Source of the DNA: Astropecten irregularis
Lineage: Eukaryota > Echinodermata > Asteroidea > Paxillosida > Astropectinidae
DNA length: 64,000 bases
NCBI GenBank assembly: GCA_963971285.1
Contig: OZ020247.1
Span: 12,606,614-12,670,613, forward strand
Direction: 5' to 3'
Shown piece by piece: positions 3,039 to 63,473 of the stretch; within the stretch, counting starts at the first letter, position 1; every line of letters starts with the position of its first letter. The position numbers were made by a program, and so were the translations under genes. The notes below the pieces were generated by a model. It was not told the origin of the DNA. It did not search any database and saw only the letters and a program-made list of their open reading frames with translations.

Positions 3039-3138
3039 GTGGCTTTCAGCTGTTCTCCACCTCCAAGCCTGGTTCCTCAATTGACCAACCACTCCCACAG
3101 AGGAGGCAACGGCACCCTCGTGTGAGCAGTAGCGACAG
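3039..3138 (+). CDS. CUSTOS: CUSTOS coding exon (internal)
   Basis: Acceptor at 3037-3038 after a C/T-rich tract (ATTTATAG|GT). Donor CAG|GTAAGG at 3138/3139. The exon is 100 nt. It starts with two bases that finish a codon and ends with AG of a serine codon completed by the T at 3871. It encodes the GFQLFSTS conserved block and the start of the acidic serine run. Confidence 0.85.
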
Positions 3139-4351
3139 GTAAGGATTTTTCCATCCAAATTTGTCTTATTTAGGAATTGTTTGTAATTCGTCAATTTGGT
3201 GTTTGAGTATTTTTCATCTGTTTTCCTTTTTTTGTCGAGGAGAATTTCTTTTTCTTAGTTCAGTGTTCTTTAAGGTGACCATATTTTGTTGAGATGGTCC
3301 GGTGACAGTGATCCGTGTCCTGGGGGAAGGGTATAATTTTGAAATGTTTTTGAATCCAGATGGTGCTTACATGCAAAATGGTGGCATCTATGGACATCTT
3401 GTCCAGTTGACTTGAGTGGGTTACATACTTACATGTCTTAGGCGGTTGGATATTCTTCAGCACACCATTTGTGTTCAGTTTTTTTTTTAGGACAATTAGA
3501 ATTTTCGGGGGCATTTCATCGAATCTGGGACATTTTCGGGGACAATTTTTCATCGGGGACGCCACTGTCAAATCGGGGACTGTCCCCGGAAATCGGAGAC
3601 GTCTGGTCACCTTAGTGTTCTTGACATTCCAACCCTACTAACCCACCTGAGCACCAAACATGGTTTTTCTGTGGTAACTAGTATGGTATCCTGAAAACCA
3701 CAATACTGTACATGGTCTTGTATACCACAGTGTGGTTTGTGTGGTATAATGTGTATTTTATGACCCACGTAATGTGTGGTAAGCAACTCTTGTCTTGTGT
3801 AGTAGAGGGTTAGGGTTAAGTAAGAATTTGAACATTATTGATGGTTATATTATTCGTTGTAATCTTTCAGTGATTCTGAGGAAGAGAGGTCCAAGCTGGA
3901 ATCAGTTGCCGTCTCCTACGATCAAATCCTCCTGGACAGCCAGCCGTCCGCATCTCAAGACAACCAGGTGACCTCTAACCTTTCACCTACTAACACGACC
4001 CCTTCAACTTTGACCTCTGCTGACCCAGCAGCACCCAAAACGCAGAAAAAGGAATGTTCAACCGTTGGTAATGACGATACAGTTGATGAAGACCATTGCC
4101 ATGGAGACGGGAAGAGTAAAAAGAAAAAGAAGAAGAAGAAGAGGCGGATTCTGCCTCGCGACGATGAGGAAGCACTTACTGAGTCTGAGTTGCCGGCTGA
4201 GAAACTGCCAGCCGACCGTGAACGTGGAAACGCATCGTCTCCAGACTCATCAGACAAGACTCCTCGGAAGAAGAGGAAGAAGAAATTGAAAGCCTCTCGG
4301 GATCCATCACGCCCGACGAGACGGAACAGTCCAGAACCCTCCACAAAATGA
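3039..4351 (+). CDS. CUSTOS: CUSTOS (C12orf43) homologue, 3' two coding exons
   Basis: Two exons (3039-3138 and 3871-4351) join in frame to about 192 visible residues ending at TGA 4349-4351. The first exon encodes GFQLFSTSKPG, aligning with human CUSTOS GFRLFFTSVPG. It is followed by a basic PQRRQR stretch like human PQPRRKR, then a serine/acidic run SSSDSDSEEE. The second exon continues with VAVSYDQILLDS, aligning with human AAVSASDILQES, and then a lysine-rich tail with two KKKKKK-type clusters typical of nuclear signals. In vertebrates CUSTOS modulates Wnt/beta-catenin signalling and is nuclear. The human protein is about 262 residues, so N-terminal exons are missing here and probably lie left of the window. 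The gene is convergent with HNF1, as in human. The homology is from memory of the human protein; function in this species is inferred. Confidence 0.85.
3139..3870 (+). other. CUSTOS intron
   Basis: GT-AG intron of 732 bp. It contains one hAT-like MITE (3271-3614), and short GTGGTAT / ATACCAC repeats around 3665-3790. No other coding signal was seen. Confidence 0.8.
3271..3614. mobile_element. hAT-like MITE with 8-bp target duplication
   Basis: The ends are a perfect 11-bp inverted repeat, TAAGGTGACCA and TGGTCACCTTA. Both sides are flanked by the direct repeat GTGTTCTT (3263-3270 and 3615-3622). An 8-bp duplication is typical of hAT transposons. The element has no transposase, so it is non-autonomous. 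Confidence 0.75.
3871..4351 (+). CDS. CUSTOS: CUSTOS last coding exon
   Basis: Acceptor AATCTTTCAG|T at 3870/3871; the T completes a serine codon. The frame runs 159 codons to TGA at 4349-4351. It encodes DSEEERSKLESVAVSYDQ, a Ser/Thr-rich middle, a first K-rich cluster (about 4117-4145) and a second KKRKKK cluster (about 4268-4287). The basic clusters fit the nuclear localisation known for the family. Confidence 0.85.
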
Positions 4352-4733
4352 CAAGGAAACAGTCTCCTTTTATTGATTACTAGCTTGCAACAACTCGGGA
4401 CAATTAGGATAAGTCAACTCTGTTAGTTCTCTTGTCTTTGCCTCGAGCGTGACAGATGATGCCGACCTTTGAACGTTTCAGCTTGGAGTGCGCCTTGTAG
4501 CAAGTCTGCGAACTTTTCATGTATCAGCGCCGTGAAATCACTCTGAGTGACTTCTCTGAGGGAAAAAAGCCAAATTTGTCTTCAATCATGCAGAGCGTTA
4601 GATGTTTGTGTACATAAATTACGATGCATGAGGCTGTACTGTTGACGGCTAGACTGCTCTGTGGTCAAAGGATAAGAATTGCACGAAGGAACCTGGGCCC
4701 AGTTTCATGGAATCCGTTATTCAGTGGTGTATG
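4352..4733 (+). other. Probable CUSTOS 3' UTR
   Basis: Sequence after the stop with no further coding signal. The nearest AATAAA on the + strand is at 4933-4938, inside a dispersed repeat, so the true polyadenylation site is uncertain. Confidence 0.45.
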
Positions 4734-5270
4734 ACTCGCCGGCCTCGGCCTTGAGGCCAGAAATTTGTTGCCTCGGCCTCGTGGGTCTATGATTTGGCTT
4801 CGGCCTCGAAGAAATCCCCCCAATATTTGAGGTAGGGGGGTGGCATGTATTATCATTCCACCCCCCTCCAATATTTCGAGGTTGAATGTCATTTAATACC
4901 GACAAAATATCTTAAGTACCGACAAAATAATGAATAAATAACCTGCTTGGATTGTAGAAAGACAATATATTTTACCTGTCCGAACTTCTCGTTCTTATTA
5001 TACATTTATTGTCTTGATGTGCGTAGTTTGTGAGGCGTGAGAGAGAATTATGCGAGTCATGCGAGAAAGCGAAGAGATGTGTCACATTTTGAATAAGCTT
5101 GAGTGAATTTACACCAAGTTTAATTCTTCTGAATATCGTTTTTAAATGAAAAATGTGACTTTTAAAAAGGTCCCTGGTAAGGGAGGGGGTTCCCCCTCCC
5201 ACACCCTCCCCCCCGCTCCGTCCCTTTGCTTCCTCGCATAGGACACCATAGGACACCAACCTATACAATC
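4734..5270. repeat. Dispersed repeat, family K copy 1
   Basis: Shares long blocks with 37533-37965 (for example TTGTGAGGCGTGAGAGAGAA, TTTAATTCTTCTGAATAT and GTCCCTGG...GGGAGGGGG). The left part holds GGCCTCGGCC-type words also seen near 12400-12800. No coding capacity. Confidence 0.6.
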
Positions 5271-5274
5271 ATGT

Positions 5275-5640
5275 GTGACGTGCGTGACATGTGCGATTTA
5301 TGGTACATATACACGTCTTCTTTAATGTGATCATGTGATCGTTGCTTTCAGAATGCTTTTTACGGTGTAATTGTTTTTTAGATCAAGCATTTAGATCAAG
5401 TACAATGTTTCTTTTAGATCCAGTATGTGAAAAGCATATTCCAACTTGGCAAAATGGACAAAATAACTGACTGAAATTCTACAGTTTACATATTTTGGGG
5501 TTGTTGAGCATGAGCCAAACATTCGTCCCTGTTTTTTTCCTTTCAGTTTCGGCTAACGGTTTGTGGAAATTTGTATAAACCGGATACTTAAATCCGGTTC
5601 GGTTAACCTATAACCGGATAAACCGGATGTTTTTATTCTT
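5275..5640. repeat. Dispersed repeat, family L copy 1
   Basis: The reverse complement of this block is present at about 47035-47350, and a partial same-family block is at 42480-42610. The end carries repeated AACCGG / CCGGTT words. Confidence 0.6.
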
Positions 5641-6187
5641 CTAATCACATTTGACTAAAAACAGGACAAAATAAAAGCAATACCAATTCAAATTTGTTTC
5701 CCACACTTGTTTATTTTCAATTGATGTCAGAGAAATGCTCATAGCTTTCAATAAATATATTTACAAAGAAAATAACATTTGCATTTTAAATAACAATTAC
5801 AATTTTCATTTTTATATTGAATTGATTTTGTATTAATAAATTCAAGTTTATTGATTGGCACTTATTGTAAGAAATTATTAAAAAAATAATAAAAGATCTT
5901 TAATTATTGCGATTTGATCAAGAATTAATAATTACATAAATCTTTGGCAACGAGCATTAATAAACAATATTTCATGTAGTTTAATACAGATACTGGAACA
6001 TTCGATCACATATTAAAATTGAAAAATCAGGTTGCTTTTTGGATTGAATGACACATGCAACAGGGATGCAAATGAAGCAAATAAATTGCTACAAAAACAT
6101 ATGAAAACAAACAGTTACACAAAAATGTTGTTTTTTCCCCCTAAAACCGTAAAAATTATGTCCATGCACAGATTCTTTGTGCCTTTC
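5641..6187. other. AT-rich stretch, nothing recognised
   Basis: Very AT-rich, with no open frame, no repeat seen elsewhere in the window and no RNA signal I can support. Confidence 0.5.
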
Positions 6188-7311
6188 AGAAGCCATATAA
6201 TCCATTAATTTCCATACCAGTGCTCTACCATCTGAGCTATCCAGTCCTATGATGGGACCTCCCTATAGTCAACTATCTTTGCTCAGGGTGCCAGTCAGAA
6301 GCCATATAACCCATTAACTGCCATACCAGTGCTCTACCATCTGAGCTATCCAGTCCTATGATGGGGCCTCCCTATGGTCAACTATCTTTGCTCAGGGTGC
6401 CAGTCAGAAGCCATGTAACCCATTAAGTGCCATACCAGTGCTCTACCATCTGAGCTATCCAGTCCTATGATGGGACCTCCCTATAGTCAACTATCTTTGC
6501 TCAGGGTGCCAGTCAGAAGCCATATAACCCATTAACTGCCATACCAGTGCTCTACCATCTGAGCTATCCAGTCCTATGATGGGGCCTCCCTATGGTCAAC
6601 TATCTTTGCTCAGGGTGCCAGTCAGAAGCCATGTAACCCATTAACTGCCATACCAGTGCTCTACCATCTGAGATATCCAGTCCTATGATGGGGCCTCCCT
6701 ATGGTCAACTATCTTTGCTCAGGGTGCCAGTCAGAAGCCATGTAACCCATTAACTGCCATACCAGTGCTCTACCATCTGAGCTATCCTGTCCTATGTTGG
6801 GGCCTCCCTATAGTCAACTATCTTTGCTCAGGGTGCCAGTCAGAAGCCATGTAACCCATTAACTGCCATACCAGTGCTCTACCATCTGAGCTATCCTGTC
6901 CTATGTTGGGGCCTCCCTATAGTCAACTTTCTTTGCTCAGGGTGCCAGTCAGAAGCCATGTAACCCATGAACTGCCATACCAGTGCTCTACTATCTGAGC
7001 TATCCAGTCCTATGATGGGGCCTCCCTATAGTCAACCATCTTTGCTCAGGATACCAGTCAGAAGCCATATAACCCATTAACTGCTATACCAGTGCTCTAC
7101 CATCAGAGCTATCCAGCCATATGATGGGGCCTCCCTATAGTCAACTATCTTTGCTCAGGATACCAGTCAGAAGCCATATAACCCATTAGCTGCTATACCA
7201 GTGCTCTACCATCAGAGCTATCCAGCCCTATTTTTGGGCCTTCCTATAGTCAACTATCTTTGCTCAGGGTGCCAGTCAGATGCCATATAACCCATTAACT
7301 GCCATATCAGA
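6188..7311. repeat. 109-bp tandem array with tRNA-like A-box
   Basis: The word TGCTCTACCA recurs at 6221, 6330, 6439, 6548, 6657, 6766, 6875, 6984, 7093 and 7202, a spacing of exactly 109 bp each time. This gives ten units plus partial edges. On the minus strand each unit contains ATAGCTCAGATGGTAGAGCA, a good tRNA D-arm and Pol III A-box, but no B-box. The unit also shares the AAAGATAGTTGACTAT leader and GGACTGGATAGCTC start with the single tRNA-like element at 15722-15793. It is therefore an amplified partial tRNA-related repeat, not a tRNA gene cluster. Confidence 0.9.
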
Positions 7312-7405
7312 TGACTGTTACTGTATCTTCCTAGATATTTTTGCCCATGAATCTGCATTATTTTTTTTACAAAAGTATGATAGGCCCTATAACATTTAAG
7401 GTTTG
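7312..7405. mobile_element. Fragment of MITE family A at the array edge
   Basis: ATGACTGTTACTGTATCTTC and TTTGCCCATGAATCTGCATT match the terminal arm of family A (compare 53535-53585). It is truncated where it meets the 109-bp array. Confidence 0.6.
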
Positions 7406-8046
7406 ATGGAGGTATCCCTAACTTATAATTCACTATTTTTCTGGAAGGTCAAAGAAGAACGAATTAAACATGTTGTAGAATTAAATGAAAATGAATCACT
7501 TTGTAACCCGATTTGTTTCCTAATTAATTTTGGTGCATTCTGTTAAATCAGAAATGGCATTGAGTAGATGAGGCAGAAATAAGGAAGTGACAAGTCAGTT
7601 GTCTAACCGTTATTCCCCTAGAACAAATCTTTATTTGTTGATGGCCTCCCATAGAACATGTAAATGACACATATTATCTATGTTTGTACATGGTCAAAGT
7701 ATAGCTCTTATGGGTCTGGCATATCCCTGCTACAGCACGCAACTGTCATTGTACTCTCTGACCCAAATGTGGTTACCAGGCAACTGGTAACCGTGCAAGG
7801 CAAAGTGCTTTTTTTTAGAGAGGTTACACACAGACAAATGCATTGTCACGATTGCCACACATTAGATCTCAGTTTGCCAACATGGCCGCCAATTGAATTA
7901 CTATACAAGCGACCCTTTTTAAATTGTTCTCTCGAAAGCGAGAACGATTTTAGGGAATGGAAGTTGCGCAGCAATGCTGCATTGGGCTGTGGTGGTTATC
8001 ATCACACCATCTACAATGATAATGTGTTTTTGACTTTGAGTGTAAA
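7406..8046. other. Intergenic stretch, nothing recognised
   Basis: One 152-codon open frame crosses from here into the fold-back element. It shows no known domain and is probably chance. Confidence 0.5.
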
Positions 8047-8664
8047 GGAGCGTTTAGACATAGGACTCAAAGTGGTCTATCTTTGGTTTAAACCGAAAAA
8101 GGGTCTACCTACTTGTGTCTGAACAGTCTACGATAGACTGTTTTGGGTGCTAGAATTGGTCTATTTTTTAAAACTTAAACCGCCGAGGAGGGACGGTCTA
8201 GACTACTCAGGCTATATTCAGATGCAGTACTCCGGAGACCGAAAAAGCTCTACCCTTTGCGGTCACAGTGGGAGGTAAACATATCATCCCAAACCCCTTG
8301 TGTCCGTACTACATGGGGTTAAACTGAAAACAGTCTATCTCTGGTGTTTAGAGGTCACTCGTGTTGTATAACTCTGAAACCAAACTTCCCTTAAATCACA
8401 AGTAGTGACAAAAATCACCAGTGAATTATGCACTCGCTCGATGTCACTCTTAACCGGATGTGGTTGAGATAAACCTTTCAGATGTCTTAAGGCACATTTG
8501 AGGACCGGTCTGCGTAGTCTAGACCATCCCTCCTCGGCGGTCTAAGTTTTCAAAGAATACCATTTTTAGCACCAAAAAGAGTCTATCATAGACCGTTCAG
8601 ACACAAGGAGGTAGACCCTTTTCAGTTTAAACCAAAGATAGACCACTTTTGTGTCTGAACGCCC
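8047..8664. mobile_element. Fold-back element with ~160-bp inverted arms
   Basis: The left arm (8047-8205) and right arm (about 8510-8664) are inverted copies: GTGGTCTATCTTTGGTTTAA on the left matches TTAAACCAAAGATAGACCAC on the right, and CCGCCGAGGAGGGA matches TCCCTCCTCGGCGG. The central 300 bp is unique and non-coding. It resembles a long-TIR non-autonomous DNA transposon. Confidence 0.8.
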
Positions 8665-9414
8665 ACTATGAAGCAGCAATAACTGTAGTGGAATTCTCGA
8701 CAGCAGATGACCCATTAAAACATGGTTCAATGTTTGTTCTTGTCCTGCCAATCATGCACAAATCTCCATAGAATAACTGACGGCAAAACAAAAACCAAAC
8801 TGAAACGGAGAAGCCAGTTCTATGTTTGTGTTGTTGTGGAAAGCCAAACAGTACATGGTCGTTGACTAAAATGGATGTTTACACTACGAACAATTGGGGC
8901 GGGCCCCTATACAAAGATCTGCCCTGAATTGTCATGGTAACAAAATTACAGACCTTCTGCAGTCATTTATGAGACAATGTATACAAGACCGGACAAAAAC
9001 AGACTGTCGCCACGGAAATTGCTAAATATTAGCAAAATTTGATTAAAATGTTCAAATTCCAATGTCACAGCATTATTCCATTCAAAGAACTTGCTGTGTT
9101 AATTAAAAACCAAAACACAAAAAAGGAAATTTGTATCCGGAACATAATTGACATTTTGAAATATAATTGGAATAACTTTTGTTCATTATGTAATTTGTAA
9201 ACTATGAACAAACGCAAAATGACACGATTGTTTTAAGAACACACTTTTACTGAAAGATAAAATATAGAGTTACATGAAACACTGCCGATCATATTACCAT
9301 GAAACATTTATATACAGGCAAGACAAGAACACGCAAAAACTTTCACATACTGTACAAAATGGACAGAATATACCAAGAAAAGACCACAAAATGTTAAGAA
9401 TTATTATTCCCCAT

Positions 9415-9650
9415 TCCAAAATGTCATCATTTTGAGCTTCTTATAATTATTTTGTTGTTTTTTGCTAAATTAATTGTTTTTCCTTTGGCTCAAAATTTCA
9501 TCATTTTGAGCTTCTTATAAATGTTTTGTTGTTTTTGTTAAATGTATTTCTTTCCTTTGGCTCAAAATTTCATCATTTTGAGATTCTTATCAAAGTTATC
9601 ATTATTTTGTTGTTTTTGTTAATTGTTTCTCCCTTTGGCTCATTAGATTT
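9415..9650. repeat. Three-unit tandem repeat, ~80 bp
   Basis: TTTCATCATTTTGAGCTTCT, then a TTTTGTTGTTTTTGTTAA tract, then CCTTTGGCTCA recur three times with small length changes. Confidence 0.75.
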
Positions 9651-9954
9651 CACTCAAAACTATTAATTTTAGTCATGATTGATAATAAATGTATATTATT
9701 TACTTACACTGAGAGCCAGTGGACAAATATTGACACCAAAACAATAAACAAAACATTGTTTTCTAGTCTGTAATTTCAATACTTTGATCCTGCTTTGAGC
9801 ATGAGTATATTAGTTAGGGTCTGTTTTTTTGTACGCACGGGATCCCAGATCTGCGGATCCACATCCTATGCAGGATACGCTATAGTAAAATGGGATCCGG
9901 ATCAGCAAATAAATGTCAAATCTTATTTGTTGTTTTAAAAGCCATGTACGTGCA

Positions 9955-10305
9955 CAACATTGGTGACAAACCCAAACTGAAATGATCACAGATTTACGTA
10001 TAACGTACAGGGTATGAAGACGCTATTGGTAGAAACATACATGTACTGTGAAAATTTTTCTGCCTGAAATGCTGTATTTATCCAGAAAAGAGTAAAACCA
10101 AACACCAAAACATTTTGATATTGGAAAGATTAAAAATGAGACAGCTATTCCCACACAATTTGGCATAACAATTGTAATGTTTGCTATACTGTTTCCAATG
10201 ATCAATTGAGCTGAATATTTCACAGGTTTGATTTTATTCCACGACAAATCAAATTATGAGCAGCCTGCAGCTGCTCTGTCACCTTTACCAATGTTGTACA
10301 TGCCC
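9955..10305. mobile_element. Diverged MITE family B copy, inverted
   Basis: Contains the family arm CACAGATTTACGTATAACGT, GTAGAAACATAC and GTATTTATCCAGAAAAGAGT. The right end CTGTCACCTTTACCAATG is that of family B. The TTAA ends are lost. Confidence 0.6.
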
Positions 10306-12037
10306 TAGAGTGGTTAGTGCCCATCCCTGTTTAATTCAAGTTTGGTCTGCCCCTTCATAAATATTTAGATTTTAAGACAAACTGTTGAAAATTAATACAC
10401 AATGAATGGTCACTTTCCTGAGAAACACTGGAAAGACTTAGAATCTTCAACTATACCTCAAATCTGAATATTTGCCATGCATTTTTTTTTTTTTGGTTAT
10501 TGCACAACTATTCCAGTGCAAATAACCCTAATGCATCGATTCTTTTTAGTTATCCTTATGTGCTTTGATGTTTAATTAATAGCATGATTTAAATTTCATG
10601 ATTAGAATTTGGATTATATTAGCATAATTTGGTTATTCGGAATAGAAAGTTTAACTGTTTTTAGCCTTTCGAAATGAAATAAATGGATATCCCAAAACTA
10701 ATTTGAAACATGTTCATAAACTCTGATATGAGTTACATTCAGATTTTTCCCTTTTTCTTAACCGAGCCGATCATTAACCAATTTCTTTTTATATACCTGG
10801 CAACATTTAATACACAAAAACAACCCCCATAAAACAACCAACCCTACAAACACCAAAAATGTCGCTGTTTAACTTTACAGAAGAAATAAATAAAAACAGC
10901 TGTAAATTTCAGCTTTTTTTTTACATAAACAATCGGCACAGACAAATAAAAACCACAATGCGGGGTTTGAAACTTGAGCCGCAATTTACACCAAAAAAGT
11001 CAAACGTTAGTATATTCACAAACATGGCATCACTTATTTCACCAACTAATAACTACTCTGTACAGTAACTATTTTGTAATGGTGGTTTATCGCAAACCAA
11101 ATTGTATTAATTCCTGTTTGAAACGATATTAAGGAATCACGAACACCACAACTAATGAGCCTTAGATGCCGTGGATAAATTTCCAAACTTGGATGAAAAA
11201 TGATTATACTGGAGAGCAATTTTTTTTTTATTCATATTCGTGAAATTCAAAAGACAATCTTTTTTTTTAAATATTTCGAAGTTTAAATATTTTTCAAATT
11301 AAATTTTCTGATAAACTTGACGTGAATCTCTCTCGCACGTTTTGCATTAATATTTACATGTATGATATTTACACATACAGCAATAATTTGAAACTTTTTA
11401 AAAGTTGAAATTTTGCTAGCACCATCAAATTCAATCAAACTCTCAAATAATGTTCATGGTTAAATGATTATAAATTCATCTTTGGTGTGATTCAAATTTT
11501 TCTGTGATTCAAATAATACTGATAATTTGCACAAAAAGAATTTGATTAAATAAGAGTAAAAAAATAATTTGATTTTAATGAATTACTGTTAATTTGCCGC
11601 CTTGCCTTCAAGTTTCACTGATACGATAATCAAAATTATGTCTCTAGTTGGTAGTTGAAAACTTGTACTTTATATATTTCATATTCCCGATGAATTTTTA
11701 AGATCAAGCTCTTTTTATTTTCAAAAAAACTTTTAACAAAAATGTTTGATACTTGGGTCTCCTGATGAGGACTAGAGCAGACTAGTCAAATCGTTGAGAC
11801 CTAATGGCGAGAAGTGCGAACGATATAGAAGTGCGAAAGTACGCGCGATTATTACATGGTATTTCCGCAAACCGATCCACACACTTGAGTCTTTACTGAA
11901 AAAGATGATATTTTTGGGTTATCAATACATGGGTGTAACAACCATTACTAGAACAGCATATCAGCTCGGCTGATACATTTCCATGGGGGGAAACACACTT
12001 ACTGGCAATTGAATCACTGTATTTCATGGAATAGCGG

Positions 12038-12345
12038 TCAGAGACGAACATACCTTCCGCTGACTGCTCTTCCTAAGATCACCCCCGTCTTGGAATCCTC
12101 CATTTCGTCGTTCACGGGACCCGCTGCGGCCGGAACGATGGTGATGTTCCCCTCTCTCTGCTTCCCCTGGAGGCTCATGGGAAGGTCAGTCATGTCCGAG
12201 ATCTTAATTGGGCTGAGGGTGGCCAGTGTCGTCATGGTAACTCCTCCGGAGACGTTGACTGGGATAGTGACTTCTTGGTGGATGTGTGAGGGTTGGTGTT
12301 GATGTTGAGGTAGATTCAGTTGAAGCTCCTTAGGTTGGTTCATTA
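12038..12345 (-). CDS. HNF1: HNF1 exon 8 (C-terminus, probable last coding exon)
   Basis: Acceptor TTTGCACCTCAG|TA at 12345. Encodes [19 protein letters not shown], then [18 protein letters not shown], which resembles human HNF1A NLSALASLTPTKQVFTSD. The open frame ends at TGA 12040-12038. A perfect donor AAG|GTATGT sits at 12054/12053, 14 nt before that stop, so an additional exon and a different C-terminus remain possible. That donor would be phase 2, unlike the human intron at this place. Confidence 0.75.
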
Positions 12346-15300
12346 CTGAGGTGCAAAAGAGAGCATTGTTAATCAGCTTGAGGTCTTTGGAGTAGAGTCC
12401 ACAACCTCCGAGGCCAAGGCCGAGTCACGAGCATTCAAGGCCAAGGCCAAACAACTTTGTTTGTAATACATACAGTCGAGTGTGTTTGAATTTTGAGCTC
12501 AGATTCAACATGCGCATCGCACATGGCAGCACAGTGTGTATGATCTGTGCTGATCAGTGGGTATCACGTAGGGTCTGCTGTTAACGTGACCTATACAGGG
12601 TGAAGATTCATCTGCGAAAACCTAAAGTAAGTGTTGGGAAATTTTGAGTCCAAACTGGCGGCCTTGAACCGGCCTCGGCCCATTTTCCAAGGCCAGGAGG
12701 TGCTATGAGGCCAAGGCCAAGACCGAGTCATCATACATCAAGGCCGAGGCCGAGACCAAAGCCGTCTAAAACCTCGAGACCAGCCATGAGACCTCCAACA
12801 CTGTTAAGATTCCTTTGGGGCAAATTATGTTCCTATACGTACACTTTTACGTATACTGTGGTCGATTTCACAAAGATTTGCGATTCATCTTTTTATATGA
12901 GTTGTTCATGTTTCCATAGAAGCTAGTATTGTGACATCACACTTTGCTTAGCAATATAGGCCACCGCGCTTGTGACGTCATGTTCAGATGTTCGGACAAA
13001 CAAGTCGCACATTGCCCAATTAACGTTGTGAAATTTGTCCAAACATCCGGGTAACTCTAGGTACTCTATAAAGAGCTCAAGCACTGAGCCCCATTAAGAT
13101 TGATACACATTTTGCGATCTGTCATGAAATTGAGCCCTGTATTTACTGAGCATCAGCATCTTGTGTATGAATTTACCGACAACATACCTTGACTGAGCTG
13201 TTGCAGGAAGCTAGGTTCGATAAGATTCTGTAATTGTTGTATCTGTGCCATCTGTTGTTGTTGCTGCTGCTGTTGCTGCTGCTGTTGTTGTTGCTGCTGA
13301 TGTTGTTGCTGCTGTTGTTGCTGCTGCTGTCCTTGTTGCTGTTGCTGTGATCTCCGCTGTGCAGCCTGTCTTGAGGCCACTGTGTAGTGCGGAGGGTGGT
13401 GGTCCGGTTGTGTTGTTGAGTTCAGTGTCGTCAGACGATGCACGCTAACTGCCGGACTATGGGACTGGATCACAGCAGCTACACAAAAAAAATATGCGTC
13501 CATTTTACTTTGAACTGAATTTTAAAAGTGACCTATTATACAACTTTGACATGATATAACAGGCAGATCTGTAAGACAAGAAGTTCGCACTTAGGCTTTC
13601 GATATAAACAACAATGAAATAATTGATTCTCAAAAAGGAACCATCTGTACAAACCTGATTGAAGCTAGCACTAAGTGGTGACTATCATTAAGTTTTGTTC
13701 TTTAAAGTCTTACGTGATTACCATCATGTACAATGTTGGCTTCAATAATCCAGCAGTTTCAGAATCTGGCCCTACCAGTCCTGAGGGATATGCGGCCATG
13801 CAACCCCAACCCATCTCAAGCTCTAAACACCTCTTCCATTTTTACTTGCACCTCTATGTAAATACTGTAAGAACAATATGGGCATGTCAGCACAGCACAG
13901 GTCTCCATGGATTTATAAGCAGATTGCTTTTTTTGGAGTTCAAGTTTCTAGTTTCAAGTTTCTTGAAACTCTGAAAGACATATATACGTTGAGCTCAAGG
14001 CATGCAGCCAACAGAGGGCGCTATTCTGAATTAAAAGGTGTCGAAGTAGGTTTTTTTTTCCAATTGTATGCTGCATCCGAATCTGTTGTCTAGAGCTAGG
14101 TCTAGGTCTTGCTCCATTGGAAATACGCAGAGACACCTAGACAATAGACCTAGCCGTAGCTCTGAAAGCCAGTTTCGGATACGGCCTAAGTCAACTAACC
14201 TGTGTTTTGTCCTTGAGTTCCTTGTAACATCTGCACCATTTGTGATGGCTGCCTGCTATGTGGATGTACTACCTGTTGTTGTTGCTGTTGTTGCTGTTGT
14301 TGCTGGTGCTGTTGGTGCTGTGAATGACCCTGCTGCATTGTGTACACTGTGCCTTGTAGACCGATTGGTGACGCTGCTTGGTTGTAATTGGCTGCGGAGG
14401 ACAGTGAGCTGACGGGAGGCAGTTTGGTGGATGTCGGCATTGTTACCTGGGATATTAAATTGCGGAATTGAGTTTTTGTAGTTAAGCAATGGCTCTGTGT
14501 TACAAGTCAGCTACATATTGCAAGAAAGCTTCTAGTCTGCAGAAAGAAACTTTATTGTTGGAAAATATTGGCTTGAATAATCTTGGAGATGATACAGGCG
14601 ACTGCCTTGGTGCCCCTGGTCATTGCCTTGTTGCCCCTGGTCATTGCCTTACTGCTTCTGGTCAGTGCCTTGTTGCCCCTGGTCATTGCCTAGCTGCCCC
14701 TGGCCATATTGCCTTGTTGCCACTGGTCATTGCCTTGTTGCCACTGGTCATTGCCTTGTTGCCACTGGTCATTGCCTTGTTGCCACTGGTCATTGCCTTG
14801 TTGCCACTGGTCATTGCCTTGTTGCCCCTGGTCATTGCCTTGTTGCCCCTGGTCATTGCCTTGTTGCCCCTGGTCATTGCCTTGTTGCCACTGGTCATTG
14901 CCTTGTTGCCACTGGTCATTGCCTTGTTGCCTTACCAAACGCATTGTGGTAGACATTTCAGTATTTATCAAACTGCATTTTAAGGGGGGCATAGGTGGCA
15001 AGTGCATTAGGCAGTCACCTCTCACCAATGTGATAGGTCATATGTGAGTAGAGTTATGCATTGGTTCTCTCCTATGCTACAAGGGTTTTTCTCTTGGTTC
15101 TCCGGTTTTCCTCCCTCCTCAAAAATCAAACACTTTCAATCTCAGGCTGTACTCTGTGATCATATATGGGTTGAATTGTGCTGGCAGCCGAGAGCGCCCC
15201 TGTCATCTTGATCACGTTGTAGCTGCATCCTTCGCAATTCAGCACCCCAGCTGCCAGTGAGGATGATAAGCCTCCCAAATTATTATATGAAAGTATCTAA

Positions 15301-20454: not shown

Positions 20455-20485
<31 letters not shown>

Positions 20486-37404: not shown

Positions 37405-37532
37405 TATGCCACTGCTGGATGATCCATCGTCGCAGGACCGTCGCTGGCCGGTGAGGGCAGTGTCGTTTGCCGCGGTAACTTTGCTGTAATCGGTCCATCA
37501 CTCATTGGGAAAATGGAAAAATGAAACTAACC

Positions 37533-37965: not shown

Positions 37966-38385
37966 AGCGAATCTACTTCCGAACCGCAGCCAAAAGCCTC
38001 TTTTTGCAAACTTTATGCAAGTCATGATTTTGGGGTATTATTTTCTTTGAGGCATTTGACTTCCTTCTGTAGCATTTATTAGTGGATAGCTCCCCTTTGC
38101 AGTTCCAAATTGGAATGGTTGCTGTTTTTTTCTACCAATTTACTGGCAGATGAGCCTATCCCGAATTTTCCTGACTATGCACGTTAACATGTCATGCGTG
38201 CTACCGATGTTTCTAGTTACAAAGATGGCCTTTATCTTTCCTTGTTAGATAACGTATTTTGTAATTAGATTGTCTGCGTAATAATGATAATAATAGAAAG
38301 AGTGAGATGATAATTTTATCCTCGTCTGATTACAGAATTCTTCTTTAAAAAAATAATAAATATGATTCACTTACGATGCACCATT

Positions 38386-38685
38386 TTAAAGGTAATATAC
38401 TTTGTTGTTTGGTCAAAGGAATGCAGATTCATTATGATCATGGGCACAAATATCAAGGAAGATGCAGTAACAGTCATAATGTGAACATTTGTTATCTTTA
38501 AAAGATCCAAAAAAATTTTGGTCACTGGTTTTACTCTTCTCTTGATAAATACAGCATTTCAGTCAGAAGAATTTTAACGGTATGTTTCTACCATCACCAT
38601 TTTTATACCATGTAAGTTATAGGTAAATCTGTGAAAAATTCTGTTTCGGTATCCTACCAAAGTATGATACATGTACTACTTTTAA
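38386..38685. mobile_element. MITE family A, internally deleted
   Basis: TTAAAGGTAATATACTTTGT at the left and ACTACTTTTAA at the right. About 70 bp of the middle is missing. Confidence 0.75.
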
Positions 38686-39582
38686 TTCAGTTTCCAGATT
38701 CCAAGTTTCTTATTGTGAAATAAAATCAAACCCAACATTTTCCCTCTACTTTTGACTGAATAATCAAATAAATAATAAGTTTGGAAAAGAAAATTATTGG
38801 CAGTAAAAAAATAATAATTGATTGTAAATACTGAAAACTAGAGTCCCTCTGAAAACCAAAGAGGGCAAGTGCGCCCTCTCGTGATATTTTGTTTCCCTTT
38901 AATAAAATTGACTGGCCCTCGGACAAAGACATCCTTGCATTGGCGCAGAATTCGGCCGGGTACCAGCAATATAAAAAGAAACAACAACATTGATCCAACT
39001 GGTTCCCTCAAAATGCCACGCTTTATTATGGCATCTGGAAGTGGGACCAGCGTAGGTATGACCCTGCGAAAGATTATGTACATTGTATATTGTATGTATG
39101 TAGAATTAAATGAGTGAATTGTACACAAGCTAGTTTGATTGTCGGGAATGGTCAATAAAAACAAACATTTTTACCCCAGTATTACGCATCGAAACTCTTC
39201 AACATTGCCATGAATATACTGCACGGTTTCTCTTTGGACTTCCAGGGATCATTTGGAACGTAAATGAGGACGATGTACGCCATGGATTGTGGAATTTGAG
39301 GTGATTTCTGCAGCCAGGTTTTTTTGTCCGGGCCCCAGAGTCTGGTGCAAACTGAACACCTGACCTCTGTGTTTGAGCCAAACAGTGTAGACCTACTGCC
39401 AGACTGCCCAGTTGTTGGACATTTTTTGTCTCGGATCACGGAGTTTTGTTTGTGTCCTGCTGAAATGAGGTGATGACCATTTAATCATGCGTTTGCTGAG
39501 TCGTTTATGAGCAAGGACTCGAAGGAGTACATATTTATTTAGTGGAAATTGTGGAGTCTTGAGAGGCGTCTTTTTGTTCAGG
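38686..39582 (+). promoter_or_regulatory. Probable SPPL3 5' flank / 5' UTR
   Basis: The 900 bp before the SPPL3 start is non-repetitive and somewhat less AT-rich near 38870-39060. No TATA box is clear. TTTTTGTTCAG directly before the ATG could be a splice acceptor, so a non-coding first exon upstream is possible. Confidence 0.35.
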
Positions 39583-39605
39583 ATGGCGTCGGAGTCCTAT
39601 GATTG
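39583..39605 (+). CDS. SPPL3: SPPL3 exon 1 (coding part, 23 nt)
   Basis: ATG at 39583 with A at -3 and G at +4. Encodes MASESYD plus TG of a Trp codon, then donor GTAAGT. Human SPPL3 begins MAEQTYSW with the Trp at the same place. The phase matches exon 2. Confidence 0.85.
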
Positions 39606-57600: not shown

Positions 57601-60600
57601 TTTTCATGAACCCTGTACATAGTCATACTCTCTGTGTGTCAACTGTTTAAAGTGATGCACTCTGTACACAATGACATATTAGAAGACTAGTACAAGTGCT
57701 TTGTCCTATACATGTACACGTACAGTATGCATTTTTTAAAGTGTTTGCTTTACATGCAGGCCTAATGGGCAATTTTAACTGACTTTAACCTATTCCTTGA
57801 TCAATAATTCTTGAAAGACTCCAATTTAAAAACATCTTATTGGAATGAGCAAGTATACCACTTATGGTTCTCAAAATGCATGCAAAAATGCAAAAATTTA
57901 CGTATAACTTTCAGGGTATGAAGGTGGTGCTGGTAGAAACATACCGTTAAGAAATATTTCCACCTAAAATTGTGTATTTATCCAGAAATTAGTCAAACAA
58001 AGACCAAAAACAGTTTTGATCTCGGGGCAAGATCAAAACCATTCTTTATGTTTTATAAGAAAAATTTAGTTCTTTTTTTTTTTCTATTTTCTTGCGACTC
58101 AGATGTCCGATTGAGCTTAAATTTTCACAGGTGTGTTATTTTATTTACATGTTGGATGGCACAAAGTGTGAGTGCAGTTCTGTGACCTTTACCAATCATG
58201 TATTACCGGTTTACCTTTAAAGCTGTCATGCCTTAGACGGTCTTAAAGGGCTTGGACCTAGATGGTCTATAAGTTAGACCATTGCTATGAAGCAGTCTTT
58301 ATACTGCTTAGCCATTCTTTTAATAGTTAGCCTGCTTGTTAAAGCTGTCTTTGTTTGGAATTTCCCTTTAATACTTGATTGTATCATGTACAATAATAAT
58401 TTCTGTTGGTCAAATGGCGTTGGAATTATTGAATTGTCGAAGATTTAAACAGAAAAGCCTTGTGCCGACAGTGGTATCTGGGGAACACACTGAATCCTGT
58501 GGTTGATATACTGACAAGAGGTGTGCACATTGTTCATATGGTGCATGTTGTGCCCATCACAGAGTGGAAATGTTTTTCGAGCCCTATTTTCAGTTAAAAA
58601 AGTATTAATTTTATTGTCTTTTAATTGTCTTTTTATTGTCTTTTAATTAATTTCTTTTAGATCCTTAAATATGGACCAGGAGGAAAAGGAGAAGAATTTA
58701 CGAGAAGACAAAGATGCCTCGGCACAGAGCCCCAACCCTAACGCACCAGTCACCAGTGAAAATGGTAAGACCAAAAAACTTGACACTTACGCACTTGTAC
58801 GTCCAGGGTTGATTTTGAACAAAAGATGTCTATTTAAAAATGTGTTCACACCCACCAAAAAGCGTGATTATTTGCGTTGCAATTCAAATTGCGATTATTT
58901 TTCCTGTCCACACAGTTAGAAAAAGCGCGAACCAAATTGCACCGGTACGATTTCTTAATCAAACTGCGCATGCCTGATTCTAATGTGTAACGCATGATCG
59001 ATGATGATCGCCTTGCATGATGGGATATAAAAAAAACCCACTTTTTTGAGTGGCGCACAGTTCACACAGCTAATAATTGCGACTATTTGCAAAAAGATGC
59101 ACTATAAGTGCGATATGAATCTCGATTTGAATCGCAATTCAAAGATTCAAATAGATTATTTGCGTCCACACACAAATAAGCGTGATTATTTGCGCTGCGA
59201 TTTAAATCGCGACCCAAATAATCACACCTATAGTACACAACTACACGTATACAGTGTACGTGTATTTTCTTGACAATGAGAAGTTTGAACAAGAAAACGA
59301 TCACCTGCATACATGTTGGCATGACTTGTGTGCATACATACATACTACATGTGTGCATACAACAGTATGTGATTGTATGCAGCCTGCAAAAATGAACAGA
59401 CTGTGGATTTGTATTACAGTGAAATGCATAATATTTGCCATTTAAACAAAATCAATCTCAATATACTGTAATTCAGAACTCTAAAAATAACAAGCGTGAT
59501 ATCATGATTCACTCTGGCCCAAACATCTGTGTCGTATTTTACCGAGCCTGGGGTTTCCCTTTGTTTGCTGTTCCATGTACATAAGTACAAAAGATTGCTA
59601 CACTGATGTGAAAAATTCCCCTGTAGCATTTTTATAAAGGAAAACCGACATGTAGCATATGCATTGTTATTATTTGTATTAATTATGGGTGGATGTATGG
59701 TAGAAGGGCCTGACGTTTCGATACAAGCAGGATCATTTTCAATGGCTGAACAAAAAAAAAAACCAACAACAACAACAAAGAATTGAAACATCTGGCACTC
59801 CCAACTCCATATGGCTGTATTGCATTAATTTAGCATTACAAATCAGTCGTTCAATTTGATGTATTCAAAAACAATGAAATATATGTTAAAAACATTGTAT
59901 CAATTAAACATAAAAATAAAAACCCTGACATTACAAGCAACATAAGAAAGGAACAGTGTTGTAGTCGAGTACCAAAATTCGAGCACCGAGTAAATTAGAA
60001 AGCTGACTATTGAAAGAACAATGACTCAAGAGATCTAAGCTGGAAGGTGGCGCTTTTCATAGTTACACACAGTGCCGAGTATGGGCCGAGTCCGAGTACA
60101 AAAACATTGAGTGCATCCCAAGTATTTTTGAACTAGAACATAGCGCCATGCGCCCATTAGAGAATGTGATGCATTTGTGTATATGATGTGCACAACCTCT
60201 CCCCCACATACGATCTTTCCTTACCTTGTTAGTTAGAAAATGCCGCATGTGATGAACGCGGTCCATAAAAAGAAGGTTGCAATATTTTTTGTTTGTAGGA
60301 CAATATTCAAATTCGAGTACAAGTACTCCAACACTGGAAAGGAAAACACATTTAACCCTCTCATGAACATGTAGGCCTTAAGAATAGTACAAATATATTT
60401 TTTATTTCATCAGCGTTTTCACGAAGAGCCACTTTGCCCACCTGGGCGCTGAAACAAAGTTTTGAGAAAATCGGCTTTTAAGTATGTTCCTTTTTAAATT
60501 GAATATTTCGCCCATTTTTAGAGGACATGTTGATTAATTGTTCATACCGGTTTCAAGCTGAAGACTTTCACTTAATACACGATGTACTAATTAAGAGTTG

Positions 60601-63473
60601 ATAGACCTTTTGATTGGGGAGTGATTTATGTTCAAAGACTTTTTTTCATTGTTCGGAGGAAAAACGTTGACCTTTAAAAGCAGGATTTTAACTGTGGGTA
60701 ATTTGGCATATAGAAGTACTTGAATGAATTTATGTTAGCACAAAAGCCTATTTTTCTGTACATTGATTTGATACATTGTAGAGTGCAGGGTATGGACTTT
60801 TCATTCTTCGGTAAACATTTGGTATTTAATGAAAACATGGAAACTTATAGCCTAGTACACATGAATGCACAGTGTATTTGGCTATTTGCTACAGTACAGT
60901 GCAACATTTGGTAAAATGCAAACTTCATACAGCATGGATGACATTGTGTGCTGCAAAATGGAAATGTAAGCCTTTCCCAGGTCTAGCACTGTATAAAACC
61001 GTGAATAAAATACATAAAATGAAACGGCTGGCATTACTAATAAGCCCAGCACACAGGTGTGCAATGTACACAGTGGGTTGACTCACACAAATTGTTTCAG
61101 AGCAAATGTGCATACAGTACATGTGCATAGGCCCATGAGGTGACCATATATCATGTGTCCAGTTTTTTCTATAATATAATCTAGAATGCAAACAAAACAC
61201 ACTTGGAACTGAATTTGGGCTGTGAAAATATAATGTCCCGCGCATTTTTATACATGTGTGCATGCAGTGAAAATCACCCGATGATTTTTTATCGGGATTC
61301 AACATCATTCTAGGTCGCACACACTTGTACACTCCATGTTCTGGCCTCGATGCATTTTAAAGGTACAAAAAACAATACATGATTGGTAAAGGTCACAGGA
61401 CATACGTTTGATCATACTTCGTCTGATCAAACGTGTACATGAAATAATACAAGTTCTGTGAAAATTTGAGCTCTATCGGACATCTGAGTCACAAGAAAAT
61501 AGCGAAAACCTGACTCAATTTTTCTTATAAAACATGAAGAATGGTTTTGATCTTACCCTGAGATCAAAACTGTTTTCGGTCTTTGTTTTACTAACTTCTT
61601 GAAATATTTTAACAGTATGTTTCTACCAGCACCATCTTCATACCTTGAGTGAAAGGGGATAACTCAAGTGAGGGTGTCCTTTATGTTTGTTCCAAAAATC
61701 GTTTGGACGAACGATCTTTGGAAAAGACACTGAATCTTGATTTCCTTGAAAAACCCAGCATCTGATGAACCAAGATTTCCCATGGTGACTGTTTACAAAC
61801 TGTTGAGTCCATTTTCTGTCTCAAACTCAAAAATATATTTTTTGGAGGCCTTGCAAATCCTGTATGCTCCCTTTAAGTTAACACTCATGTGAGAAGCCGG
61901 ATCTTTATGGGAATTTGGTTACCATGCCAACATATTGTTTTCGATCAACTAGTCTGAAGCATAATTACTTACTTGTCTGCAAACCTGTGGCACATCATTT
62001 CTGTTTTCACAACCTGTATGTATGGAGCTGTTAAGCACAAATAAATGCTTAGCACATAATGTCTCGTTCAATAAAACACCACCATTAAACATTTTCATTT
62101 GATATTCATGTTCAGCGAACAAGAGCCAACTTTAGAACAATCACAAGTGGTACACAACACATGGAAATTTGGTTGTTAATCCTGTTTTCATTAAAGCAGA
62201 AATGTCATCGTTAGCAAATTTGTTTGTGCTTAGCAGGGCTGTGAAATTGGCCCCTTCTGTCAGTGCATAGGATATTCTTTTTTAGATTTCTAAGAGTATG
62301 TTCACACGAGGCTGCTATTCACTGCTAGTGCTAACTTCACTGCTACATTTAACTTAGCAGTGACAATTTGTGGCTGTTGGAACATAATTTTAAGTAACTT
62401 CAACGTCAACTTTGCTGCTAACTTTGCTGGCTAAGTCCAAAAGTTCACAGAAAAATCAGTCTCTTTTCAACTTAAACATTATTTTTGGGAATATAGTAAG
62501 CTTACTGCTAGAATTTTTTTTTTTATTGCACTACCGAGGTTTAGCTTTTTTAATGCATTTCACTTGGTTGTCCCTAAAGTCCTTTTCACACGATGCCAAA
62601 AAACCTCTCAACCATTGAGAAATTCTCTCATGGGTCTGGACCTTGGTCAAAATCTCTCAAGGATTCACCAGGGACGTCGGTCACTCTCAAGCATTGGTGT
62701 CCTTTCACATGATGACACTTTTGTACGATTTCGCAACCATGAGAGAATTTCTCAATGGTTGAAAGTTGTTTTAGCATCGTGTGAAAAGGCCTTTTGCCTT
62801 TAAAGGTAGTATCATACTTTGGTAAGAAACCAAAACAGAAATGTTCACAGATTTACGTGTCAATATACAGGGTATGAAGATGGTGGGGATAGAAACATAC
62901 CCTTAAAATGTTTTCACCTGAAATTGTGTATTTATCCAGAAATTACTAAAACAACGACCGAAAATCTTTTTAATCTTTTAAAAGATCAAAAATAAAAGAG
63001 AAAAGACTTAAGAAATACTGTGGCCGTTTTTCACTGTTTTTTCAAAATGTGGGGACTCAAATTTTCACAGATTACTTTTACTGTATCTTCCTTGATATTT
63101 TTGCCCATGAATCTTTATTTCTTTGACAAAAACCAAAGTATGATATTACCTTTAAATGTTGTTTTTTTTTAATACCATGTACTGTACATGTATTTGTTGT
63201 GAGTTTATTTTTGTTTCATACTATGTACAAGGCAATTCTTTTTATGCAAACCCGTGTTTTATTTTTAACCACTGGATCGGTGTATTATCGAGCACGTTGA
63301 TGCTGATATTGTGTTATAATTGATGTATTTTTGTGTTCTGTTTTTTTTGGTTACAGTTCACAGTATAGACACAACTCAAGCCATGTTCCTCCCTGTGGGT
63401 GCTTCCATATCTCTGCTCGTTATGTTTTTCTTCTTCGACTCCATGCAAATGGTGTTTGCTGTCTGTACAGCAG
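39583..63473 (+). CDS. SPPL3: SPPL3, signal peptide peptidase-like 3 (first four coding exons)
   Basis: Exons 39583-39605, 50598-50675, 58661-58764 and 63357-63473 join in frame to 107 residues. They begin [20 protein letters not shown] and continue [19 protein letters not shown], a variable acidic/Ser/Asn segment, then [20 protein letters not shown] and [16 protein letters not shown]. This matches the human SPPL3 N-terminus almost residue for residue except in the loop. SPPL3 is a multipass Golgi intramembrane aspartyl protease of the presenilin/SPP family that trims glycosyltransferases (family knowledge). Two membrane segments are visible (residues about 17-33 and 78-98). The catalytic YD and GxGD motifs would be in exons right of the window. 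It is divergent from HNF1 as in human. The human protein is about 385 residues. Confidence 0.93.
39757..40069. repeat. Duplicated hairpin module, copy 1
   Basis: About 310 bp repeated at 40632-40939: AAAGTTTGGGACCCT, CTTGTGTTTTTATCACACGT, CCAAGAATCCATTGCGCATG and CGATCTGTGGCATAATGACT. It carries an inverted pair TGTAGCCCTATAT / ATATAGGGCTACA. Confidence 0.85.
40632..40939. repeat. Duplicated hairpin module, copy 2
   Basis: Second copy, offset 875 bp, same orientation. The inverted pair TGTAGCCCTA / TAGGGCTACA is kept although the loop differs. Confidence 0.85.
41625..43166. mobile_element. 1.5-kb hAT-like non-autonomous transposon
   Basis: Ends CAGGGGTCGAAATTAA and TTAATTTCGACCCCTG are perfect 16-bp inverted repeats. 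The direct repeat CATTTG is found on both flanks. GGCCCG-rich subterminal words are inverted relative to each other. Open frames inside (up to about 119 codons) show no transposase motif. Confidence 0.8.
42480..42610. repeat. Family L fragment inside the hAT-like element
   Basis: CAGCCAGTTATTTTGTCCAT and GCCAAGTAGAAACACACTTT match 47175-47220 and, inverted, the block at 5275-5640. Confidence 0.55.
44649..44841. mobile_element. Inverted-repeat element, family F
   Basis: CAGCGGAACGCTGCTATAA at the left faces TTATAGTGGCGTTCCACTG at the right. Related sequence lies near 21590-21720 (ATTGGAAACCAAGGATGATG). Confidence 0.6.
45490..45705. mobile_element. Fold-back repeat, ~100-bp arms
   Basis: GTGTCCCCGCC…CCGCTAACAAAA…ACTCTATAATTGCAG on the left is mirrored by CTGCAGTATAGAGTGT…TTTTGTTGCCGG…GGCGGGGACAC on the right. 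Confidence 0.65.
46315..46640. repeat. Dispersed repeat, family O copy 1
   Basis: Present inverted at about 50835-51010: TGTAATGGAAACAACACAAG versus CTTGTGTTGTTTCCATTACA, and GTTTGTAAACAAAAGAAAGG versus CCTTTCTTTTGTTTACAAAC. Confidence 0.65.
47035..47350. repeat. Family L copy 2, inverted
   Basis: Reverse complement of 5275-5640. AACCGTTAACCGAAA and GGCTCATGCTCAACAA are the landmarks. Confidence 0.65.
47455..47755. mobile_element. Diverged MITE family B
   Basis: AAACCAAAACAGAAATGTCC and ACCGAAAACAGTTTTGATCT are family landmarks. Both ends are eroded. Confidence 0.55.
48290..48442. mobile_element. Short palindromic MITE (GGGGTCGATTTCAC)
   Basis: GGGGTCGATTTCAC at the left and GTGAAATCGACCCC at the right are perfect inverted ends of a 153-bp element. 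Confidence 0.75.
48510..48810. repeat. Dispersed repeat, family J copy 1
   Basis: Matches 51022-51299: GAAGAGACGCAACATT, GGTTGAGATTTTCAACCCTG and CCCGAGATTTTGGATAG. Confidence 0.75.
49453..49703. mobile_element. Inverted-repeat element, family P copy 1
   Basis: GTCCAATTTCATGGCCCTGC at the left versus GCTCCATGAAGCTGGCCCCT at the right. An inverted second copy is at 62029-62255. Confidence 0.6.
50090..50565. mobile_element. Family M repeat, ends 32 nt before SPPL3 exon 2
   Basis: CAGTGGCGGTTCTAG at the left and CTAGAACCGCGGCTG at the right are inverted ends. It contains a C13 run and an internal insert at about 50281-50410 absent from the copy at 21288. Confidence 0.7.
50598..50675 (+). CDS. 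SPPL3: SPPL3 exon 2
   Basis: Acceptor TTGTTGTGCAG|G; donor TTCAG|GTAAG. Encodes [12 protein letters not shown] and the first membrane segment [13 protein letters not shown]. 78 nt; human differs by only a few conservative residues. Confidence 0.95.
50707..50830. mobile_element. Fold-back element N, copy 1, 31 nt after the exon 2 donor
   Basis: ATGGGAGACTTTGGAGAAC at the left, GTTCTCCAAAGTCTCCCAT at the right. The centre is CpG-rich. Second copy at 63801-63934. Confidence 0.8.
50835..51010. repeat. Family O copy 2, inverted
   Basis: See 46315-46640. A third diverged piece is at about 63655-63760. Confidence 0.6.
51022..51299. repeat. Dispersed repeat, family J copy 2
   Basis: Direct copy of 48510-48810, about 2.5 kb downstream, with roughly one in eight bases changed by eye. 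Confidence 0.75.
51411..51697. repeat. 143-bp tandem duplication
   Basis: GATCGACTGTCCAAAAAAGA occurs at 51417 and 51560. The two units differ at only a few bases, so the duplication is young. Confidence 0.9.
52478..52847. mobile_element. MITE family A, full-length
   Basis: TTAAAGGTAATCATACTTTG at the left and CAAAGTATGATACTACCTTT at the right. 370 bp including TTAA sites. Confidence 0.85.
53249..53618. mobile_element. MITE family A, full-length, inverted
   Basis: TTAAAGGTATCATACTTTGG and CCAAAGTATGATATTACCTT with TTAA on both sides. 370 bp. Confidence 0.85.
55593..55778. mobile_element. MITE family A, right half missing
   Basis: TTAAAGGTATTAAGCCATAC and the arm to CCCATGGAATTTCCTTAA. The rest is lost. 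Confidence 0.7.
55851..56033. repeat. Repeat Q copy 1
   Basis: TCTTGATTTCCTTGAAAAAC, CCATGGTGACTGTTTGCACT and TGTATGCTGCCTTAA. Further copies at 56605 and 61678. Confidence 0.65.
56428..56604. mobile_element. MITE family B, truncated at repeat Q
   Basis: TTAAAGGTACAATACATGAT to CTTATAAAACATGAAGAATA. The remainder is replaced by repeat Q copy 2. Confidence 0.7.
56605..56797. repeat. Repeat Q copy 2
   Basis: CTTTATGTTTGTTCCAAAAA at the left and ATGCTCCCTTTAA at the right. It replaces the second half of a family B element. Confidence 0.65.
57358..57579. mobile_element. MITE family B, internal deletion
   Basis: TTAAAGGTATAATACATGAT at the left and CAATCTTGTACTGTACCTTT at the right. It jumps from CCGAGATCAAAA to the right end. 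Confidence 0.75.
57893..58220. mobile_element. MITE family B, inverted, left end missing
   Basis: AAAATTTACGTATAACTTTC to CCAATCATGTATTACCGG, then TTTACCTTTAA. Confidence 0.75.
58661..58764 (+). CDS. SPPL3: SPPL3 exon 3 (variable loop)
   Basis: Acceptor AATTTCTTTTAG|A; donor AATG|GTAAGA. Encodes [18 protein letters not shown] and a Ser/Asn/Pro segment. The start SLNMD is conserved with human; the rest is the variable acidic loop. 104 nt. Confidence 0.92.
58840..59224. mobile_element. Fold-back repeat with AATCGCAATT words
   Basis: GCGTGATTATTTGCGTTGCA on the left and several GCGATT/AATCGC inverted words to 59224. GTGATTATTTGCG recurs on both sides of the centre. Confidence 0.6.
61357..61655. 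mobile_element. MITE family B, right end replaced
   Basis: TTAAAGGTACAAAAAACAAT at the left through ACCATCTTCATACCTTGA. Repeat Q copy 3 follows. Confidence 0.7.
61678..61876. repeat. Repeat Q copy 3
   Basis: CTTTATGTTTGTTCCAAAAA to TGTATGCTCCCTTTAA, again attached to a family B fragment. Confidence 0.65.
62029..62255. mobile_element. Inverted-repeat element, family P copy 2
   Basis: GGAGCTGTTAAGCACAAATA and GCTTAGCAGGGCTGTGAAAT are the inverse of the ends at 49453-49703. Confidence 0.6.
62577..62797. mobile_element. Palindromic element H
   Basis: TTTTCACACGATGC and CAACCATTGAGAAATTCTCT at the left are mirrored by AGAGAATTTCTCAATGGTTG and GCATCGTGTGAAAA at the right. Confidence 0.8.
62800..63155. 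mobile_element. MITE family A, full-length, inverted
   Basis: TTAAAGGTAGTATCATACTT and CAAAGTATGATATTACCTTT with TTAA on both sides. It ends about 200 bp before SPPL3 exon 4. Confidence 0.85.
63357..63473 (+). CDS. SPPL3: SPPL3 exon 4 (second membrane segment)
   Basis: Acceptor TTTTTTGGTTACAG|TT; donor GCAG|GTAATT. Encodes [20 protein letters not shown] and [18 protein letters not shown], nearly identical to human. 117 nt. The gene runs on past the right edge. Confidence 0.95.

Follow-up and report, generated by a model that had tools for sequence, protein, structure and literature searches.

Three genes, CUSTOS, HNF1 and SPPL3, lie side by side in the window (the whole stretch of 64,000 nucleotides analysed here), as their counterparts do at the human HNF1A locus. 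This raises two questions: how old the neighbourhood is, and what has kept the three genes together. The gene models were rebuilt from the sequence and its splice sites rather than from transcripts, and they give the order CUSTOS (+), HNF1 (-), SPPL3 (+), with each of the three genes passing its Pfam cut-off. HNF1 and SPPL3 are arranged head to head, with 7,893 bp between their start codons, and CUSTOS and HNF1 tail to tail, with 7,687 bp between their stop codons; from the other strand, the block reads SPPL3(-) HNF1(+) CUSTOS(-). The original prediction had claimed exactly this order, convergent on one side and head to head on the other, and the exon models and Pfam matches confirm it. The block includes the following features:

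3039..3138, plus strand: CUSTOS penultimate exon (GGFQLFSTSKPG...; 33 aa aligned to a human CUSTOS probe with 54.5% identity, E 2e-4)
3871..4351, plus strand: CUSTOS last exon, with the stop codon (joined exons match PF23999)
4352..12037, no strand: tail-to-tail spacer between CUSTOS and HNF1 (contains the 109-bp tandem array at 6179-7310)
12038..12345, minus strand: HNF1 exon 8, with the stop codon TGA (splice model; more 3' exons possible)
13188..13478, minus strand: HNF1 exon 7, long poly-Q tract (splice model)
14200..14446, minus strand: HNF1 exon 6, poly-Q tract (splice model)
15365..15591, minus strand: HNF1 exon 5 (splice model)
17344..17510, minus strand: HNF1 exon 4, second half of the homeodomain (splice model, structure match)
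22010..22190, minus strand: HNF1 exon 3, first half of the homeodomain (splice model, structure match)
23123..23322, minus strand: HNF1 exon 2, POU-like domain (PF04814, E 6e-32)
31218..31690, minus strand: HNF1 exon 1, start codon and N-terminal part (splice model, Pfam)
31691..39582, no strand: head-to-head spacer between HNF1 and SPPL3 (contains 5 of the 22 kept mobile-element pieces)
39583..39605, plus strand: SPPL3 exon 1, MASESYDW, last codon split after two bases (GTAAGT donor)
50598..50675, plus strand: SPPL3 exon 2, 26 protein letters (88% identical to a human SPPL3 probe, E 1e-8)
58661..58764, plus strand: SPPL3 exon 3 (probe match, E 0.007)
63357..63473, plus strand: SPPL3 exon 4 (70% identical to a human SPPL3 probe, E 6e-15)

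In the HNF1 model, 8 exons on the minus strand, from 31690 to 12038, encode 697 aa, with GT/AG borders at 7 of 7 introns. Its product matches Pfam HNF-1_N with 118.9 bits (cut-off 29.7), and among solved structures it matches HNF1-alpha (E 5e-79) and HNF1-beta (E 8e-76) best, whereas the match to homeobox-containing protein 1 (4j19; E 3e-7) is far weaker than that to the HNF1-alpha chain. As judged from the protein sequence, the gene is nearer to HNF1A/HNF1B than to HMBOX1. Proteins of the HNF class carry a POU-like domain and, after it, an atypical homeodomain in which helices 2 and 3 are separated by an insert of 21 residues (PMC2211742). The homeodomain encoded here (82 residues) aligns without gaps to those of HNF1A and HNF1B, and therefore carries the same 21-residue insert. 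A probe search for extra 3' exons revealed none that were convincing, and the C-terminus scored 36 against the human C-terminus, with a shuffle mean of 41.

For CUSTOS, the part in the window is the C-terminal one and comprises the two final exons only. The joined exons reach 29.4 bits against PF23999, slightly above the cut-off of 27.4, and cover profile positions 121-245 of 264; probes for upstream exons gave nothing convincing in the first 3 kb of the window. The same C-terminal part (3039-4351) also resembles PF09428, a fungal family of unknown function, at E 1e-5 and 26.0 bits (cut-off 29.4), which hints that CUSTOS and this fungal family are perhaps related.

SPPL3 is represented by its first four exons only (39583-63473, plus strand), the remainder lying past the window end together with the exons for the catalytic YD and GxGD motifs. 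Exon 1 is new relative to the gene description in the original prediction. Between 31.7 and 50.6 kb, three candidates for a short first exon closing on a split Trp codon were seen, and this is the sole one with 6 of 6 donor consensus bases. Human SPPL3 has MAEQTYSW where the window has MASESYDW. The predicted protein matches Pfam Peptidase_A22B with 26.3 bits (cut-off 23.3; profile 3-44 of 286). Its 107 aa score 348 against human SPPL3, with a maximum of 44 in 200 shuffles. SPPL3 was the only family member compared, as against SPP and SPPL2, and the gene owes its name to this alignment. Searches of the SPPL3 part against PDB chains and NCBIfam gave no match.

The two spacers were also scanned for a hidden gene. 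None of 8 scanned ORFs of at least 70 aa in the CUSTOS/HNF1 spacer and none of 12 such ORFs in the HNF1/SPPL3 spacer reaches a Pfam cut-off, and a gene hidden between the three was rejected on these 20 ORFs, a scan that genes made of short exons only could escape. It left out the minus-strand ORF at 3955-4413, which lies mostly opposite the last CUSTOS exon. A further four ORFs, a pair in the first intron of HNF1 and a pair in that of SPPL3, likewise fall short of any Pfam cut-off; most of the others among the 169 ORFs listed for the window stood outside the Pfam scan. No Rfam family was found in the window at gathering score.

The original prediction had likened this layout to human 12q24.31. 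For the relative strands the likeness holds with the human ones (SPPL3 minus, HNF1A plus, C12orf43 minus). For the gene order it is borne out by published coordinates, which place the same three genes on human chromosome 12 as SPPL3 (121190313-121352174), HNF1A (121406346-121450315) and C12orf43 (121430225-121464305), followed by OASL (PMC10343069), and by a human interval given as HNF1alpha-C12orf43-OASL (PMC3009678). An SPPL3 SNP at 120,798,455 with HNF1A SNPs beyond it, rising from 120,978,819 to 121,001,630, is in line with this order (PMC6797125). Outside human, our comparison covers pig and chicken records: the pig list, not strictly map-ordered, reads ACADS, SPPL3, HNF1A, C12orf43, OASL (PMC10734178), and chicken chr15:9-10 Mb holds HNF1A, SPPL3 and C15H12orf43 in one 1-Mb bin, likewise not map-ordered (PMC7402339). 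The spacing differs between human and the window. The listed human intervals, which may include flanks, leave a gap of 54 kb between SPPL3 and HNF1A and overlap for HNF1A and C12orf43 (PMC10343069), whereas the corresponding start and stop codons in the window are 7.9 kb and 7.7 kb apart.

By simple arithmetic, the chance of the exact order and orientation is about 6e-10 for 20,000 genes in random order, and about 5e-7 within one linkage group of 700 genes. Coincidence as the source of the arrangement is very unlikely under these random-order assumptions; the figure points to common descent and carries no weight on selection. At 17q12, HNF1B is not known to have SPPL3 or CUSTOS as a neighbour. 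It has been placed between LHX1 and HOXB (PMC2211742).

To which side of the HNF1A/HNF1B split the window gene belongs was assessed over 150 aligned residues, comprising the POU-like domain and the homeodomain, with the HNF1A and HNF1B chains taken as human. HNF1A and HNF1B share 133 of these residues with each other, whereas the window gene shares 115 with HNF1A and 118 with HNF1B. All three sequences agree at 111 positions and all differ at 6; 22 residues are shared by HNF1A and HNF1B only, 7 by HNF1B and the window gene only, and 4 by HNF1A and the window gene only. A clear assignment as an ortholog of either human gene was rejected, the single HNF1 of the window being about equally far from both. 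The comparison, which is of three sequences with no outgroup and is unrootable, fits a gene older than the HNF1A/HNF1B split. At 7 of 7 introns, the phase in the window gene (2,1,2,1,0,1,1) is the one found in human HNF1A. HNF1A and HNF1B are described as descendants of one invertebrate gene, situated in regions duplicated in early vertebrates (PMC2211742), and sea urchin has a single Hnf1 (PMC4880809).

From the shared order and these residue counts we infer that the three-gene block is probably ancestral, inherited from before the vertebrate HNF1 duplication and surviving at the HNF1A locus. The block would already have been in place when a duplication at the origin of vertebrates gave rise to HNF1A and HNF1B, and the SPPL3 and CUSTOS copies beside HNF1B would have been lost or moved. 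The claim of the original prediction that HNF1A, not HNF1B, keeps the ancestral context is most likely correct, because the order is that of human HNF1A and the window gene is about equidistant from HNF1A and HNF1B, which are closer to each other. If so, the block explains simply which of the two vertebrate copies stayed at the ancestral address. It is quite improbable that the window is instead an HNF1A locus of a vertebrate, jawless or other. The window order is indeed the vertebrate order, and a fast-evolving vertebrate HNF1A would look alike in a three-sequence comparison that has no outgroup; against this, the window gene is no closer to HNF1A than to HNF1B, and it encodes two long poly-Q tracts, which are not known from human HNF1A. 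The source of the window is likely an invertebrate and may be a deuterostome. Searches of GTDB genomes and IMG/VR with a repeated element, HNF1 and a retroelement-like ORF of the window gave 0 relatives.

Why the block stayed together is a separate matter. The likeliest of the mechanisms proposed here, to which we give somewhat less than an even chance, is retention by HNF1 control DNA; the original prediction, too, had suggested shared regulatory DNA. Part of this DNA would lie outside the gene's own promoter, in the 7.9-kb spacer and the 11-kb SPPL3 intron 1, so that HNF1 expression would suffer if HNF1 and SPPL3 were separated. The hold on CUSTOS, on the 3' side, would be weak or a matter of chance. 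Regulatory blocks of a transcription factor and bystander genes are an established kind (PMC8851819). Those of the wnt7-atxn10 type likewise set a developmental transcription factor beside unrelated genes in an order kept over deep time (PMC8851819), whereas the block in the window is putative as a regulatory unit. The deuterostome pharyngeal gene cluster also sets endoderm transcription factors beside genes of other kinds, but it contains several transcription factors and was sampled widely, compared with one factor here and a single genome set against vertebrates (PMC11175523). In rat Hi-C data, the bin at 12:47.42 Mb contacts two Hnf1a bins in both conditions and, in one row and one of the two conditions, the Sppl3 bin at 47.31 Mb, 110 kb away (PMC8787344, Table 3). 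The Hi-C table speaks weakly in favour of retention by control DNA. The SNP rs2464195 belongs to the HNF1A region. In the same Table 3, the SNP labels of the Hnf1a/Sppl3 and Phf1/Cuta rows look exchanged, the figure legend giving a chr6 SNP for Phf1 (PMC8787344).

The alternative of passive survival, in which few breaks fell between the three genes in slowly rearranging lineages and their order was never selected, is a real possibility, though we would not put it at one half. It agrees with the lack of any sign of constraint. HNF1 consensus sites number 6 in the window against 7.8 expected and are not enriched, and mobile elements extend across much of the block. One such element gave 30 matches, of which 7 short ones were dropped and two rows merged, leaving 22 pieces; 5 of the 22 lie in the HNF1-SPPL3 spacer, which is open to insertions. 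The longest gap between the pieces spans about 14 kb, from SPPL3 exon 1 through intron 1 to exon 2. As a candidate for a protected, element-free stretch it does not stand out (P 0.095), and it holds one dropped 33-bp match to the element as well as other repeats. These site and element counts also speak against retention by control DNA. The width of the spacers does not suit a shared promoter or an overlap of gene ends. Both of these causes were rejected for the window, a shared bidirectional promoter on the 7.9 kb between start codons and overlapping 3' ends on the 7.7 kb between stop codons, both distances being measured between codons. Low recombination without regulatory function has been named as an alternative for such blocks (PMC8851819). 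What speaks against passive survival is that both neighbours and both orientations have been kept, which goes beyond mere linkage.

We consider it unlikely that the genes are held by co-regulation, with HNF1 and SPPL3 co-expressed in secretory cells of the gut or liver-like kind and jointly tuning N-glycan fucosylation; SPPL3 is expressed widely in mammals, which does not favour such a link. Several published links nevertheless agree with it: fucosyltransferase and GDP-fucose genes are under HNF1A control (PMC3009678), HNF1A is called a negative regulator of FUT8 (PMC4919920), Golgi glycosyltransferases including FUT8 and GnT-V are cleaved by SPPL3 (PMC12927314, PMC4919920), and in the upper stomach of sea urchin, Hnf1 and genes for digestive enzymes are expressed together (PMC4880809). 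The original prediction had regarded the three functions as unrelated, and for HNF1A and SPPL3 this does not hold, both acting on N-glycan fucosylation (PMC3009678, PMC12927314, PMC4919920); CUSTOS, with a described role in beta-catenin nuclear entry (PMC5464927), does not fit the co-regulation. A further step, that the HNF1-SPPL3 pair is an old glycosylation unit whose members have been neighbours through shared control DNA since before vertebrates, is very doubtful. HNF1 would then set which fucosyltransferases are made, and SPPL3 would set their stay in the Golgi. If such a unit is real, the human glycan and CRP association signals at 12q24.31 that are assigned to HNF1A would partly act through SPPL3.

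HNF1A underlies MODY3 diabetes. Plasma N-glycans, CRP and cardiometabolic traits all show association signals at its locus (PMC3009678, PMC6797125, PMC10343069). If the neighbourhood is older than vertebrates, (i) non-coding variants in SPPL3 or C12orf43 may act on HNF1A, and (ii) the SPPL3 introns of sea urchin and amphioxus are a place to seek old HNF1 enhancers. A literature search for SPPL3 and microsynteny, covering the main text of openly available articles, found no paper, and the only synteny paper found that names the genes has two of them in a mammalian SNP table (PMC11321361). The block may already stand in a genome-wide microsynteny list. The gene block itself is real, and its ancestry is probable.

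Long pieces of the mobile element counted above measure about 330-390 bp. Its pieces resemble the copy at about 63 kb by 74-88% and occur in both orientations between 9957 and 63156 (for example, at 25641-26011, 52478-52848 and 62797-63156). The element recurs about once per 3 kb across the HNF1 introns, the HNF1-SPPL3 spacer and the SPPL3 introns, and looks like a non-autonomous DNA transposon with ends undefined. The tandem array at 6179-7310 consists of 10.4 copies of a 109-bp unit with 95% matches. In reverse complement, the unit shows by eye a stretch like a tRNA box A, as if a tRNA-derived short element had turned into a satellite. HNF1 intron 4 contains a tRNA-Thr-like gene with a GGT anticodon (15721-15793, minus strand), without an Rfam match at gathering score and perhaps a tRNA-derived element. 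The same intron contains an ORF of 249 aa (16407-17156) that has no Pfam match and resembles the C-terminal region of non-LTR reverse transcriptases. Two short arrays built on a related 66/76-bp unit flank this ORF, which overlaps them slightly, as if it had been inserted into one array. Further arrays in HNF1 introns, at 22250-23076 and 14603-14931, are built of a 24/46/140-bp unit, 65 copies of the 5-bp TGGGT and 15.6 copies of a 21-bp unit.
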